Shown here piece after piece: positions 5,244-19,374 of a stretch of DNA of 32,491 nucleotides. The DNA comes from a virus, in IMG/VR virus record IMGVR_UViG_3300030389_001241, positions 1 through 32,491 of that record; one strand, 5' to 3'. How positions within the stretch are numbered: position 1 is the stretch's first letter; each line of letters begins with the position of its first letter. The translations under genes and the position numbers were made by a program. Below the pieces are notes generated by a model that saw only the letters and a list, made by a program, of their open reading frames with translations, did not search any database and was not told the origin of the DNA.

Positions 5244-5519
5244 ATGAAAAAAGTAGTCAAAGAACATTATCAAAGAGTAGTTGATTTAGGTTGTATTATT
5301 TGTAGAAAGATGGGCCATTACGATAGTCCAGCAGAAATACATCATATTCAAGAAAAGTATATGTTAGGTAAGAAATCTGACCACACTTGCACTATACCAT
5401 TATGTCCACCTCACCATAGAACATCTGAATACAGTTATCATTTCAGTCCAAAGAAATTTACAGAGCAATGGGGTACACAACAAGAGCTGTTGAAAGAAGT
5501 CCAGGAGTTATTGAAGTGA
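5244..5519 (+). CDS. Small HNH nuclease, Ref/YbcO-like
   Basis: This is a 91-residue single-domain protein starting directly after the previous stop. It carries CIIC (C17, C20), a catalytic-type AEIHHI (H33, H34) and LCPPHHR (C54, H57, H58), spaced as in the zinc-bound beta-beta-alpha HNH nucleases of the Ref/YbcO/DUF968 kind. It ends with a helix FTEQWGTQQELLKEVQELL, also common in that group. Known relatives cut DNA during recombination or packaging. It is the only nuclease of its type here and sits in the late lysis cassette, so packaging or late recombination is likelier than homing. Fold confidence is high, role is open. Confidence 0.75.
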   Translation: MKKVVKEHYQRVVDLGCIICRKMGHYDSPAEIHHIQEKYMLGKKSDHTCTIPLCPPHHRTSEYSYHFSPKKFTEQWGTQQELLKEVQELLK

Positions 5520-5792: not shown

Positions 5793-6029
5793 TTACATCA
5801 TAATCCTATACCTTTTCTTGGTAAGTTTCAACTGACGTATCATATTTTCACTTTTTATTTTCTCAAGATATCCTTGTGATATTAAATGAGACACTATATC
5901 AAACGCATGGCTCTTACTTTTTATTCTACACCCAGCACATATCTCTTTATATGTTGGTGATGTTTTATATGCAGAAATAAAATGTTTGATAAAATAATAT
6001 ACATCTCTTTGTCTTGCTTTTATTTTCAT
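5793..6029 (-). CDS. LexA N-terminal-like winged-helix protein
   Basis: This is a 78-residue protein. Residues 5-56 match the LexA DNA-binding domain pattern: ARQRDVYYFIKHFI, then SPTYKEICAGCRIKSKSHAFDIVSHLISQGYLEK, corresponding to RQ-x-x-V-x-x-x-I...SPT-x-x-EIA...S...V-x-x-H-x-x-L-x-x-x-GY. There is no peptidase domain, so it cannot self-cleave like LexA. It is the last gene of the early operon. The start overlaps the previous stop as ATGA, with AAGGAG before it. It probably acts as a small repressor of phage promoters or of host SOS boxes; the target is unknown. Confidence 0.72.
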   Translation of the reverse strand: MKIKARQRDVYYFIKHFISAYKTSPTYKEICAGCRIKSKSHAFDIVSHLISQGYLEKIKSENMIRQLKLTKKRYRIMM

Positions 6030-11595: not shown

Positions 11596-12063
11596 TTAGC
11601 TAAGTTTAGCTGGTTGTTTTGTAGTAACAGGTCTCTTTGATTTTACTGGAGTTGTTACCTTGTACATGAAACTCATATCTGGATTCATGTTGATTTTCTC
11701 AGGATTTTCATATCCTAACTCAGCATAAACTTCAGGAACTAAATCAATTCTTTGTTGGTGTTCACTTTGAGTTAACTTGAAGTTTTCAAGCACCTGATTT
11801 TCTTCTTCAATGTCGTGATTGGAATCAATCTCGACTTGTGGCATATCTGCAAAAGATTCAAATCCTTTTGCTTGTGCCATTTCATTAAGCTTTATTAACT
11901 TACGTTCTATCTGAATCTGACATCTATGCCATTTGACTAGATACATGCGAACCAAATCGTTTGCAGTTTCACGATGTGGCTCGTAAGTACTTCTGTCATC
12001 AGCCTTTTCAGGTTGTTTCATAAGTGTTGTAATTGCTTTCTTGAATGTTATATCTTTACTCAT
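11596..12063 (-). CDS. First gene of the leftward transcript, function unknown
   Basis: This is a 155-residue soluble protein beginning MSKDITFKKAITTLMKQPEK. The centre is a long helix rich in charged residues (DLVRMYLVKWHRCQIQIERK, then LIKLNEMAQAKGF), and the end is polar with KSKRPVTTKQPAKLS. Its start (AGGAGACTATT before the ATG) lies inside one arm of the large inverted duplication at 12048-12266, and a degenerate copy of its first codons is present in the other arm. Being the gene nearest the control region, it is likely transcribed first and early. No domain is recognised. Confidence 0.75.
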   Translation of the reverse strand: MSKDITFKKAITTLMKQPEKADDRSTYEPHRETANDLVRMYLVKWHRCQIQIERKLIKLNEMAQAKGFESFADMPQVEIDSNHDIEEENQVLENFKLTQSEHQQRIDLVPEVYAELGYENPEKINMNPDMSFMYKVTTPVKSKRPVTTKQPAKLS

Positions 12064-12266
12064 AATAGTCTCCTATAAATGTATTAAAATTAAATTGCGA
12101 AAACCGCAAAGCGACCAATCGGTGTACGAAGTACTTGCGTAGCAAGTCGTATGAAAGGAGAAAGCCCGCAGGGCTTTACGAGTATGCCGATTGGTGTAGT
12201 ATTCGCAAAAATTTAATTTTAATAATACATTTAAGATGGGGACTATGAACGAGTAAATGATATACA
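12048..12266. repeat. Long inverted duplication of the divergent control region
   Basis: The left arm (about 12048-12101) and right arm (12202-12266) are inverted copies. TTCGCA and TTTAATTTTAAT match exactly, with two 3-nt insertions in the right arm; ACATTTA follows, and then GGAGACTATTATGAGTAAAGATATA in the left arm corresponds to a GGGGACTATGAACGAGTAAATGATATA-like version in the right arm. The copy thus reaches over the ribosome site and first codons of the leftward gene. AT-rich arms could carry paired divergent promoters. An origin or packaging role is also possible. Confidence 0.8.
12115..12194. promoter_or_regulatory. Branched stem-loop core of the control region
   Basis: CCAATCGGTGTAC (12115-12127) pairs with GTATGCCGATTGG (12182-12194), 13 bp with two G-T pairs. 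Inside are two tight hairpins: ACTTGC-GTA-GCAAGT (12133-12147) and AAAGCCC-GCA-GGGCTTT (12161-12177). TCGTA (12147-12151) can also pair with TACGA (12177-12181). Outside, the arms of the long inverted duplication continue the pairing. The GC-rich core contrasts with the AT-rich surroundings. It can fold as a cruciform in DNA or as a three-way junction in RNA on either strand. Confidence 0.75.
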
Positions 12267-12349
12267 GATAGAAATGGCAATTACAACCTTATGAATACAA
12301 CAATCTCAGCAACAACTTACAGTACAAATCGAGCCACATCGAAACTGTC

Positions 12350-12443
12350 AATTTCGGTTGTAACAAAATCAATACGTTATGGCTAGTGGCTTGACAGATA
12401 GAACGCCATATGTTTCTATCGAGAAAAGGTAACAACCGAAATT
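12350..12443. promoter_or_regulatory. Inverted repeat and promoter-like sequence before terS
   Basis: AATTTCGGTTGT at 12350-12361 is an exact inverted copy of ACAACCGAAATT at 12432-12443, ending 4 nt before the terS start. Inside lies a perfect -35 hexamer TTGACA (12391-12396), followed by the dyad GATAGAA...TTCTATC (12397-12403 and 12414-12420). The -10 would have to be the poor TTCTAT at 12414, inside the dyad. A third GATAGAA is at 12267-12273. No ribosome site precedes terS. This may be an operator-controlled promoter or a terminase recognition site. Confidence 0.5.
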
Positions 12444-12447
12444 AGAT

Positions 12448-12849
12448 ATGCCACAACTCAAGAACGTGAACGCAATATTACCGAAGAAACCTCCTTCGCT
12501 GAATCAAAGACAGAAAGACTTAGTAGACATACTATTAAGAGATGGCTGTTCTGTCGAGGAGGCGTCAAGACTCGCAGGATACAAGGGCAAGACTCCTGGA
12601 GTGCAAGGTTACGCAACGCTGAAGAAGTCTCATGTAGCTGAGTACATGCACCAACAGATAAAGGAATCATTCGGACTCAACAGTATCAAGGCGGTGCGAA
12701 CCTTGACACGCCTCTCTCAGAACGCCAACTCAGAGTATGTCCAGATGGAATCAGCGAAGGATATACTTGACAGAGCAGGTCATAAAGCACCTGATAAGCA
12801 CCAACATCAAATCATCGGAGACTTCAAGGTAAATATAGATTTAGGTTGA
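12448..12849 (+). CDS. Terminase small subunit
   Basis: This 133-residue protein has a TerS-type helix-turn-helix: LNQRQKDLVDILLRDGCSVE, then EASRLAGYKGKTPGVQGYAT and LKKSHVAEYMHQQI. A helical oligomerisation part follows (LNSIKAVRTLTRLSQNANSE, VQMESAKDILDRAGH) and a short tail (GDFKVNIDLG) of the kind that touches the large subunit. It would recognise the packaging site and load concatemers for TerL. It is set apart from terL by about 3.2 kb and has its own terminator. The dyads directly upstream are candidates for its binding site. Confidence 0.8.
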   Translation: MPQLKNVNAILPKKPPSLNQRQKDLVDILLRDGCSVEEASRLAGYKGKTPGVQGYATLKKSHVAEYMHQQIKESFGLNSIKAVRTLTRLSQNANSEYVQMESAKDILDRAGHKAPDKHQHQIIGDFKVNIDLG

Positions 12850-13489: not shown

Positions 13490-13833
13490 TGGCATTACCA
13501 TTACTAGCAGCAGCGAAAGTTGCATCTATACTAGGACCAACAGCATTAAAAGCTGCCAAGTTAGCTTATAAGCTGTACAAGAAAAGAGGTGGTAAGAAAA
13601 GTGAAAAGAAATTTTTATCTGATAAAGCTAACAAAGTAAAAAGGAATAAGGAAGAAATAAAAAAAGGTGAAGAAGCTCTTGATAGAGCAGACGATAAGTT
13701 TAAAATGGACGATGGAACTTTTGGTGCTTTTGATCCAGTTGTAAAAAAAACTAGATTAATGAAAAAAACAGATGATATAGCAATATATAATAGAATGGCA
13801 AAACGATACAACAGAGGAAAATTAGGAAAATGA
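13486..13833 (+). CDS. Basic protein with N-terminal hydrophobic helix
   Basis: This is a 115-residue protein. The first 30 residues are Ala/Leu-rich (MMALPLLAAAKVASILGPTA, then LKAAKLAYKLYKKRGG) and could form an amphipathic membrane-active helix. A charged helical centre (KRNKEEIKKGEEALDRADDK) and a C-terminal FGAFDPVVKKTRLMKK part follow. ATG 13486 and 13489 are both possible; GGAGAGC favours 13486 or coupling. It belongs to the block of small basic proteins ahead of terL. No family is recognised. Confidence 0.7.
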   Translation: MMALPLLAAAKVASILGPTALKAAKLAYKLYKKRGGKKSEKKFLSDKANKVKRNKEEIKKGEEALDRADDKFKMDDGTFGAFDPVVKKTRLMKKTDDIAIYNRMAKRYNRGKLGK

Positions 13834-14018
13834 AAGGCGTACCACATTATACAAAAGATGGCACATTGTTTACAGGCAAGACACATAAGATGGCTGATGG
13901 CACTTTACATACAGGTAAGAGTCATACAAAATCAAGTGAGAAGTTATTTCACATGAAGGACTTGCCAAAGGCAGTTCGCAATAGAATCATGAAAATGATG
14001 AAAAAGAAAGGAGGTTAA
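13830..14018 (+). CDS. 62-residue protein with DGTLxTGK repeats
   Basis: This 62-residue basic protein carries two copies of a short motif: KDGTLFTGKTHKM and ADGTLHTGKSHTK. A C-terminal basic helix, DLPKAVRNRIMKMMKKKGG, is similar to the end of the 38-residue protein at 12993. I recall comparable small proteins (Y-T-K-D-G...TG-x-T-H-K) among marine phage virion genes, without known function. It starts as ATGA with the gene before it. Confidence 0.68.
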   Translation: MKGVPHYTKDGTLFTGKTHKMADGTLHTGKSHTKSSEKLFHMKDLPKAVRNRIMKMMKKKGG

Positions 14019-14020
14019 TA

Positions 14021-14083
14021 ATGCCAGGTATGAAAAAGAAAAAGAAAGTAAAAATGCCAAAGCCAAAAAAGATTAAGTACTAA
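14021..14083 (+). CDS. 20-residue poly-Lys micro-protein
   Basis: The peptide MPGMKKKKKVKMPKPKKIKY contains ten lysines in twenty residues. AAAGGAGGTTAATA before the ATG is close to an ideal ribosome site, and its stop overlaps the next start as TAATG. It is shorter than gene-finder limits but set between two coupled genes. It could neutralise DNA charge, like a phage-encoded polyamine substitute, or only relay ribosomes. Confidence 0.62.
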   Translation: MPGMKKKKKVKMPKPKKIKY

Positions 14084-14346
14084 TGGCTAAGAGTCCAGCG
14101 TGGCAACGCAAAGCTGGTAAGAACCCAAAGGGTGGTCTGAACGCCAAAGGGAGAGCCAGTTACAATAGAAGTACTGGTGGTAATCTAAAACCACCAGCAC
14201 CTAATCCAAAATCCAAGCGTGATAAGGCGAGGCGTAAATCTTTTTGTGCTAGAATGAAAGGCATGAAGAAAAAATTAACGTCAGCTAAAACAGCTAGAGA
14301 CCCAAACTCAAGAATCAATAAAGCTCTTAGAGCATGGAACTGTTAG
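14083..14346 (+). CDS. DUF6321-like small virion-module protein
   Basis: This is an 87-residue basic protein with AWQRKAGKNPKGGLNAKGRA, SYNRSTGGNLKPPAPNP, then RRKSFCARMKGMKKKLTSAK and a C-terminal DPNSRINKALRAWNC. This pattern is conserved in many cyanophages and other marine phages, and I believe it is the DUF6321 family. Its role is unknown; the position among structural genes suggests a virion or assembly part. TAATG overlap with the micro-protein gene before it. Confidence 0.72.
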   Translation: MAKSPAWQRKAGKNPKGGLNAKGRASYNRSTGGNLKPPAPNPKSKRDKARRKSFCARMKGMKKKLTSAKTARDPNSRINKALRAWNC

Positions 14347-14354
14347 GAGGTAGT

Positions 14355-14588
14355 ATGCCAAAAGTAAAACCATTGGGTGTTAAACCAGTTAAAAAAAAAG
14401 TTTTAACTAAATTACAAAAAGCAGAAGCAAGAGCAAAGATTATGGTTGCCAATGAAAAAAAAGCCATTGATGCAGAAAAACAAAAACGTTTTCAACAATG
14501 TGTTGAAGTAAAACTTCTAAAAGGACATTCACAAGAACTTGCAGAAAAAATGGCTAGGGAGATTATCTACAATACGCATGAGGTGTAG
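14355..14588 (+). CDS. Basic helical protein, function unknown (77 aa)
   Basis: ATG 14355 is chosen because TAGGAGG ends 4 nt before it; the in-frame ATG at 14334 lies inside the upstream gene and has no such site. The protein begins MPKVKPLGVKPVKKKVLTKL and continues as a Lys/Glu-rich helix (QKAEARAKIMVANEKKAIDA). The stop is adjacent to the next start. No family is recognised. Confidence 0.68.
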   Translation: MPKVKPLGVKPVKKKVLTKLQKAEARAKIMVANEKKAIDAEKQKRFQQCVEVKLLKGHSQELAEKMAREIIYNTHEV

Positions 14589-17803: not shown

Positions 17804-19374
17804 TGATAGACTCTAAAGCAGCAGATAACGTGCAACATATTGAAAATCCTGTCAAAAGAATATTAGCAAAGTATCAACATGCTAAAACAATTAAAGACCA
17901 ATGGAATCCTGTCATGGAAGAATGTCATGAGTTAGCATTGCCACAAAGAGAATCATTCTACACAGAAACAATGGCTAGAAGAAGAACAGACCATATCTTT
18001 GATGAGACTGCTGTTGTAGGAGTCCAGGAGTTTGCTAGTAGATTACAGTCAGGTATAGTGCCTAACTATGCAAGATGGGCAAACTTTGTTGCTGGTACAG
18101 AAGTACCACCAGACCAACAAAAAGATGTAAACTTAGCATTAGATGAAGTTACAGAGTATGTATTTGAAATATTACAAAACTCAAATTTTTCTCAAGAGAT
18201 ACATGAAACATTTTTAGATTGTGCAATAGGCACAGGGGTTTTATTAGTTGAAGAAGGCGATGCTGTTCAACCAATAAAATTCAAAGCAATACCATTGCCA
18301 CAAGTATGCTTGACAAGTGGGCATGATGATAAGATAGATGCAGTATATAGAAAAAGAAGTATTAGAATGAAAGAACTTACTTTTGCGTATGCACAACCTA
18401 TCTTTAATGAAAAAATGATGATGGATGCAGAAGCAAATCCAGACAAAGAAATTAAAATATTAGAAGTTATATATCGTGATTATTCAGAGACTAAAGAAGA
18501 AAAAAATATTTTTTGTGCCATTGCAGAAGATTACGAACATAAAATTTATCAAGAAGAATATAAAGGTATGGGTAGTAATCCATATATAGTTTATCGCTGG
18601 TCAAAATGTCCAGGAGAAGTATATGGTAGAGGACCTTTACAGTTTGCATTACCTGCAATTAAAACTGCTAATTTAGTCGTAGAGCTAATATTAGAAAATG
18701 CACAAATGAGTATATCTGGTATGTACCAAGTGGAAGATGATGGAGTCATTAATGTTGACAACATTGCACTTATTCCAGGCACAGTAATTCCGAAAGCAGC
18801 AGGTAGTGCAGGTTTACAACCTATTGCACAAGCAGGTAACTTTAATGTTTCAGACCTCGTATTAAGAGATATGAGAAGTAACATAAAGAAAGCGTTATAT
18901 AATGATATGTTAGGTAATCCAAATGAAAAAACACCAATGTCTGCAACAGAAGTAGCTGAAAGACAAGCAGATTTATCCAGACAAATAGGTGCAGCGTTTG
19001 GTAGATTACAAGCAGAGCTAGTAAATCCAATACTATCAAGAGTTATTTACATCCTTAAAAAACAAGGAAGGATCAAAATACCTGTAGTAAATGGTAGAGA
19101 AGTGCAAATCAAATCATCTAGTCCATTGGCACAGGCACAACATCAACAAGATGTTGCTACCATAGATAGATTCTTAGGATTAATGCAAGGTAGAGTAGGA
19201 CCAGAGTTATTAAATATTATGATTAAACAAGATGAAGTTGCAAAGTTTGTTGCTAGAAAGCTTGGTATTCCAGAAGAACTAATTAGAAGCCAACAAGAAA
19301 TGCAAGAAATAATGGAAAGATATCAACAAGTTAATCAAGCAGCACCAACAGCACCAGCCGAACCTCCACAATAA
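17803..19374 (+). CDS. Portal protein (T7-type head-tail connector)
   Basis: This 523-residue protein matches the T7 gp8-type portal family: an N-terminal helical part with WNPVMEECHELALPQRESFY, DHIFDETAVVGVQEFASRLQ and SGIVPNYARWANF, then CAIGTGVLLVEEGD, a central KCPGEVYGRGPLQFALPAIK, and late helices PMSATEVAERQADLSRQIGA with a Gln/Pro-rich tail. It forms the dodecameric ring at one vertex of the head, through which DNA enters and leaves. It is followed by a promoter and dyads at 19379-19479. Confidence 0.95.
   Translation: MIDSKAADNVQHIENPVKRILAKYQHAKTIKDQWNPVMEECHELALPQRESFYTETMARRRTDHIFDETAVVGVQEFASRLQSGIVPNYARWANFVAGTEVPPDQQKDVNLALDEVTEYVFEILQNSNFSQEIHETFLDCAIGTGVLLVEEGDAVQPIKFKAIPLPQVCLTSGHDDKIDAVYRKRSIRMKELTFAYAQPIFNEKMMMDAEANPDKEIKILEVIYRDYSETKEEKNIFCAIAEDYEHKIYQEEYKGMGSNPYIVYRWSKCPGEVYGRGPLQFALPAIKTANLVVELILENAQMSISGMYQVEDDGVINVDNIALIPGTVIPKAAGSAGLQPIAQAGNFNVSDLVLRDMRSNIKKALYNDMLGNPNEKTPMSATEVAERQADLSRQIGAAFGRLQAELVNPILSRVIYILKKQGRIKIPVVNGREVQIKSSSPLAQAQHQQDVATIDRFLGLMQGRVGPELLNIMIKQDEVAKFVARKLGIPEELIRSQQEMQEIMERYQQVNQAAPTAPAEPPQ

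Follow-up and report, generated by a model that had tools for sequence, protein, structure and literature searches.

Gene organization of the locus

We examined a virus record 32,491 bases long (hereafter called the window) from a podovirus-like phage, the large terminase of which is 79% identical to that of the Pelagibacter phage EXVC031P Hodr. Leftward and rightward genes diverge at about 12.1 kb of the window; the leftward set encodes SSB, a RecE/YqaJ-like exonuclease, a DnaT/HTH protein, and a LexA-like protein, and the rightward set comprises packaging and structural genes. The cumulative GC skew reaches its minimum near 12 kb, which does not decide on an origin because the minimum coincides with the switch in gene orientation. 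No DNA polymerase was found among the proteins searched (a subset of the ORFs), and a search for iterons in the DnaT-like gene gave weak two-copy repeats only. At a convergent junction (5244-5519 and 5793-6029), we noticed a gene for a RecA-dependent nuclease-like protein (Ref, PF16786) and one for a protein with a LexA DNA-binding domain. Also, in Hodr (L094), an early gene matching anti-restriction PHROG 7245 (13573-14457) lies shortly downstream of the hairpin-linked gene described below, and the operon holding it ends with a RusA-like resolvase (18587-19051).

The two divergent genes at the locus are a leftward gene and terS (Table 1). The former is translated, given that its third codon positions differ most between relatives. 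Its product hit no Pfam family above the cut-off and no PHROG. A helical hairpin was predicted with confidence for this protein and its positional homologues, the model being the same in two groups despite the low pairwise identity, and the model of the window protein had no fold match in the PDB or among viral structures. The leftward protein evolves fast at a constant place in these phages. The position of the probable promoter of terS is kept in relatives. It is flanked in the window by a 15-nt inverted repeat, AATTTCGGTTGTAAC / GTAACAACCGAAATT (12350-12364 / 12429-12443), which also occurs in the related loci L008-L012 with the stem letters changed and is possibly an operator or a promoter hairpin.

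Architecture of the hairpin in the window

Between the divergent leftward gene and terS, we found an imperfect inverted repeat that is capped by a GC-rich tip of two hairpins (Table 1). The strict arms of 144 and 153 nt form 120 Watson-Crick pairs with 12 mismatches and 19 indels in the gapped alignment, and a looser gap cost extends the arms to about 220 nt (11903-12122 / 12187-12405).

Table 1. Genes and structural features around the divergent junction of the window
Feature	Position	Strand	Remarks
Leftward gene	11596..12063	-	155 aa; helical-hairpin protein; heads the leftward (early) operon; coding by third-codon-position excess
Outermost match, left	11829..11848	+	18/20; inside the leftward gene
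Left arm, strict	11961..12104	+	gapped self-complement alignment; includes the opening codons of the leftward gene
AT-rich perfect 15-bp stem, left strand	12082..12096	+	pairs with 12210-12224
Core stem (13-14 bp), left strand	12114..12127	+
Tip hairpin 1	12133..12147	+	6-bp stem; C(GTA)G triloop
Tip hairpin 2	12161..12177	+	7-bp stem; C(GCA)G triloop
Core stem (13-14 bp), right strand	12182..12195	+
Right arm, strict	12199..12351	+	gapped self-complement alignment; non-coding, indel-riddled inverted copy of the 5' part of the leftward gene
AT-rich perfect 15-bp stem, right strand	12210..12224	+	pairs with 12082-12096
Degraded copy of the ribosome site and first codons of the leftward gene	12234..12262	+	in the right arm
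Probable sigma-70-type terS promoter	12391..12419	+	TTGACA, 16-17 nt, TTTCTA/TTCTAT; read by eye
Outermost match, right	12444..12463	+	18/20; covers the terS start codon
terS (terminase small subunit)	12448..12849	+	Terminase_2, PF03592

An earlier note on this DNA had placed the element at 12048-12266 with arms of about 55-65 bp. The arms, the 13-bp core stem, and the two tight hairpins are all present there, and the right arm indeed carries, as the note had described, a degraded inverted copy of the start of the leftward gene; the extent was nonetheless set too small and covers only the inner part of the strict arms. The note had also seen far more structure than in a plain divergent promoter, and this is right. 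DNA folding gave z = -12.4, and none of 200 shuffles was as stable.

When the window was scanned for inverted repeats, the element scored 81, as compared with 34 for the next repeat and 28 in the shuffled window, and was the sole such repeat. It is also unique in the genome of Hodr, where the scan gave 178 for the element, 29-31 for the next, and 40 after shuffling; in MEP301, HTVC010P, HTVC019P, BcepC6B, and N15, the best scores did not exceed 46. A chance origin is ruled out by the shuffles, the genome-wide scans, and these five other phage genomes.

Counting near-copies, the 1 kb upstream of TerS is enriched 17-fold in small hairpins with C(GNA)G loops. In L007, the stem of the second tip hairpin has undergone a double change from C-G to T-A. 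Furthermore, a strong hairpin with a C-GNA-G loop, AGAATACC[GNA]GGTATTCT, in which the loop varies, was noticed in L011, L027, and L038 at about -960 from TerS, downstream of the leftward gene.

Occurrence in related phages

Loci of relatives were retrieved by using the leftward protein and TerS as queries. The same element was found between the same two genes, terS and the leftward gene for a helical protein of about 150 residues, in the cultured pelagiphage Hodr (OQ414635) and in many independent IMG/VR contigs, at one place per genome and in phages with TerS identity down to 43%. Comparison of the loci showed that the element recurs at a constant location although the related phages differ in sequence: the intergenic sequences of the element-bearing relatives cannot be aligned with each other, and the arms nevertheless match within each.

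Four relatives (L008, L034, L089, and L090) have arms of about 580-644 nt, which form roughly 490-513 Watson-Crick pairs. Their right arm does not code and reproduces the entire leftward gene in inverted form, riddled with indels. The largest arms (635/644 nt) have 513 pairs and 56 mismatches, and the DNA folding energy of L008 is -391 kcal/mol versus about -129 kcal/mol for shuffles. While TerS of L008 is 85% identical to that of the window, its leftward gene is 78% identical to that of L034 and has no detectable similarity to that of the window; the leftward gene and its mirror therefore appear to be exchanged between phages as a module, or cassette.

Among the relatives compared, the center of the hairpin is located 76-112 or 150-170 nt upstream of the leftward gene and 190-970 nt from TerS. 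Because the center keeps its distance to the leftward gene and not to TerS, the hairpin belongs to the early operon. The same gene order without the long hairpin was found in L011, L021, L027, L038, L039, and L047, so the element is not strictly essential; other relatives have short hairpins or none. On the TerS tree, at least five changes on well-supported branches are required to explain the long hairpin form. A search for loop inversion between relatives gave no convincing case.

Compensatory change between the arms

Between L008 and L034, 48 pairs have changed on both sides versus 14.5 expected (38 of them Watson-Crick), and between L089 and L090, 30 have done so versus 4.6 expected (24 Watson-Crick); about a third of unrelated double changes would restore pairing, the compared pairs share branches and are not phylogenetically independent, and the choice of alignment influences the counts. 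The comparison shows base pairs kept by compensatory changes even though one of the arms codes. The compensated changes are unclustered (51 runs versus 49.9 in shuffles, and 25 versus 28.8), which argues against conversion tracts, involve G-T steps in a minority of cases, and comprise 27 transitions and 35 transversions. About 50-70% of the changed pairs were altered on one side only. In the Hodr group, the arms within one genome differ by 8-11% in substitutions, and the same arm differs by 11-25% between more distant members.

In the coding arm, bulged positions change faster than paired ones at every codon position (20-31% versus 9-20%; 24.5% versus 13.1% overall). When pairs were defined by an outgroup, paired sites in the near group changed at about one-half to one-third of the rate of unpaired ones, and several comparisons with the distant outgroup L062 show no difference between paired and unpaired sites. 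The arms differ mainly by small indels (42 indels versus 22 mismatches in Hodr); with the same aligner, the left arms of Hodr and L087 show 17% substitutions but only 6 indels. Presumably, the coding arm cannot follow when the silent arm gains an indel, whereas a substitution can be compensated.

Pairing into terS

In the Hodr-like phages, pairing extends to about +120-140 of terS. The score of coding complementarity between the leftward gene and TerS is 55 in Hodr, 53 in L087, 48 in L070, 44 in L058, and 38 in L067, as compared with about 18.5 ± 2.5 after synonymous-codon shuffling of both genes; it is only 28 in L061, and the elevated set is hence Hodr and four of the five related contigs. 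In the Hodr group, the choice of codons in these two conserved genes is adjusted for pairing. The TerS part of this pairing cannot stem from duplication of the leftward gene because TerS there is a normal family member. Plain duplication followed by neutral decay is ruled out by the compensation and by the codon-shuffle tests that reach into TerS. The idea of a duplicated promoter arm in the earlier note was thus right in that the start of a gene is copied in inverted form but too narrow in view of the whole-gene copy in some relatives and the pairing into TerS in the Hodr-like phages. Pairing in relatives, on which the note had made its reading depend, is present in most of them with compensatory changes, but some lack the long hairpin.

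Discussion

A maintained and functionally relevant fold at the DNA level is highly probable, before allowing for an alternative in which the arms are kept alike with no function at all. Namely, the DNA would fold occasionally, and template switching or short-patch repair would then use one arm to correct mismatches in the other, with small loops escaping. Template switching homogenizes the arms of inverted repeats (PMC8604942), and the concerted change of the arms and the coding sequence in an arm are features that our element shares with long inverted repeats in which template switching or gene conversion maintains similarity (PMC8604942, PMC1803023). The predominance of indels in Hodr would, moreover, follow from a correction that acts on mismatches and spares bulges. 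Unlike in those repeats, however, the changes here affect single sites and do not lie in tracts, the differences are mainly indels, and the position is kept, once per genome, across phages with unrelated sequence and diverged TerS; also, at a given codon position of the coding arm, bulged sites evolve faster than paired ones. We hold functionless concerted evolution to be rather unlikely.

It is unlikely, too, that the element is a switch of early expression, either as an Frpo-like fold-back promoter or as a supercoiling-driven cruciform toggling the divergent promoters. The tip sits where an early promoter is expected, and the stem of Hodr can be read as carrying TTGACA-17-TATACT with a 6-nt bulge beside the -10; a -35/-10 within the fold-back stem is a trait of Frpo. 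The Frpo/ssi single-stranded promoters of conjugative plasmids share the long imperfect fold-back DNA, and the leading regions that they drive likewise carry SSB and anti-restriction genes (PMC11541004); SSB is among the early genes here, as is an anti-restriction gene in Hodr. Nonetheless, tailed phages deliver their DNA as a double strand, reading of the long-arm class gave no clear leftward sigma-70 promoter, and a promoter does not need gene-length arms. The present element, furthermore, resides in a tailed dsDNA phage, has arms several times longer than those of Frpo/ssi with a whole gene inside, and shows no match to them in sequence or promoter. Promoters of the N4 virion RNA polymerase are small triloop hairpins upstream of early genes. 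Hairpins with a 5-7 bp stem and a 3-nt loop are also present here upstream of early genes, with the C-GNA-G loops, as in N4, on the template strand for the leftward genes; gene-length arms are, however, absent from N4, and no RNA polymerase, N4-like or other, was found among the large proteins searched (a subset of the ORFs), the largest being tail/internal virion proteins or unmatched.

If the fold acted in RNA, a single transcript over the whole element would form a rod regulating early or late genes. RNA folding is indeed strong (-286 versus -179 kcal/mol in Hodr), the C-GNA-G triloops lie on the + strand, and standing G-T mismatches on that strand exceed A-C ones outside the Hodr group (68 versus 28), albeit not within it (23 versus 25). 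On the other hand, G-T pairs are few, one-sided changes yield G-T and A-C about equally and favor neither strand, and transversions make up about half of the compensated changes, which together suggest that the fold acts as DNA. A spanning transcript would also be antisense to one of the two genes, and Rfam models had no match in the window or in five related loci. The excess of triloops versus tetraloops does not discriminate between the DNA and RNA readings. The compensated substitutions and the codon choice point to a constraint on the folded DNA and not on the protein or on one RNA, and we consider an RNA rod improbable.

We similarly see little likelihood in a packaging start (pac), at which TerS would recognize bent or folded DNA. 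Sites of pac are often in or near terS; the element adjoins this gene, and in the Hodr-like phages the pairing reaches into it as far as about +128. The center, however, does not keep its distance to TerS, the arms end at least 63 nt before TerS in L034, L089, and L090 and about 310 nt before it in L008, and a symmetrical site lacks direction. Lastly, while inverted chimeras are common in amplified metagenomes, a fold-back artefact of assembly or amplification is hardly credible for arms that have diverged and co-evolve and for an element that is shared by a cultured isolate and contigs from independent samples.

The element matched no known family of elements. Cruciform or hairpin origins of rolling-circle plasmids, e.g., oriD of pC221 (PMC5775427), share the inverted repeat and, putatively, the recognition of a folded form; those origins are short, whereas the element is long, and the proteins searched here (a subset of the ORFs) included no RepD-like initiator. 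The telomere of N15 (tos) is likewise a phage palindrome at a single place of the genome and is detected by the same scan with a score of 44, but it is a 56-bp palindrome cut by protelomerase; the arms here are long, imperfect, and partly coding, with the indels and mismatches of the window spread over arms of about 150 nt rather than a near-perfect short palindrome, and no protelomerase gene was present among the proteins scanned (a subset of the ORFs). Parvovirus telomeres have an imperfect long stem and a T-shaped tip of two hairpins. Both features are shared by our element, which is internal in a tailed-phage genome and not at its end, and a parvovirus-like replication protein was not found among the proteins searched.

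We therefore favor a fold-back site of the early region, related to replication, over an early-expression switch, a packaging site, and functionless hairpin-templated repair. Taken as a whole, the reading of the element as a giant imperfect DNA hairpin (quasi-palindrome) with a DNA-level fold and a putative role as such a site has, in our judgment, an even chance of being correct. The first leftward gene would supply one arm with its 5' part or, in some relatives, its full length, and a silent, frameshifted inverted copy of it would be the other, with the GC-rich branched tip about 75-170 nt upstream of the leftward gene. The negative supercoiling that arises from divergent transcription might extrude the fold as a cruciform, or the fold might be a hairpin of phage DNA in its single-stranded state; in either form, it could be recognized in starting or priming phage DNA synthesis. 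A role in origin or priming is a tentative assignment, which is preferred because a DnaT/HTH initiator-like protein, SSB, and a RecE/YqaJ-like exonuclease are encoded and no DNA polymerase was among the proteins searched.

In conclusion, it is somewhat probable that tailed phages here carry a cis element of a new class, namely a DNA hairpin as long as a gene, with a working gene as one arm and a silent mirror as the other. Selection on the folded DNA would keep the arms paired base by base, the fold could draw in terS, and the gene and its mirror would be a module exchangeable between phages. Long palindromes are generally unstable, and a coding sequence serving as a strand of a maintained DNA hairpin is unexpected; hundreds of base pairs co-evolve, codons of two conserved genes included. 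If driven by repair, the element would document in nature how a hairpin templates correction. With a functional fold, it would show that the evolution of genes can be constrained by DNA secondary structure on the kilobase scale and would hint at a new step of replication or early expression in phages of SAR11, which is among the most abundant bacteria in the ocean.
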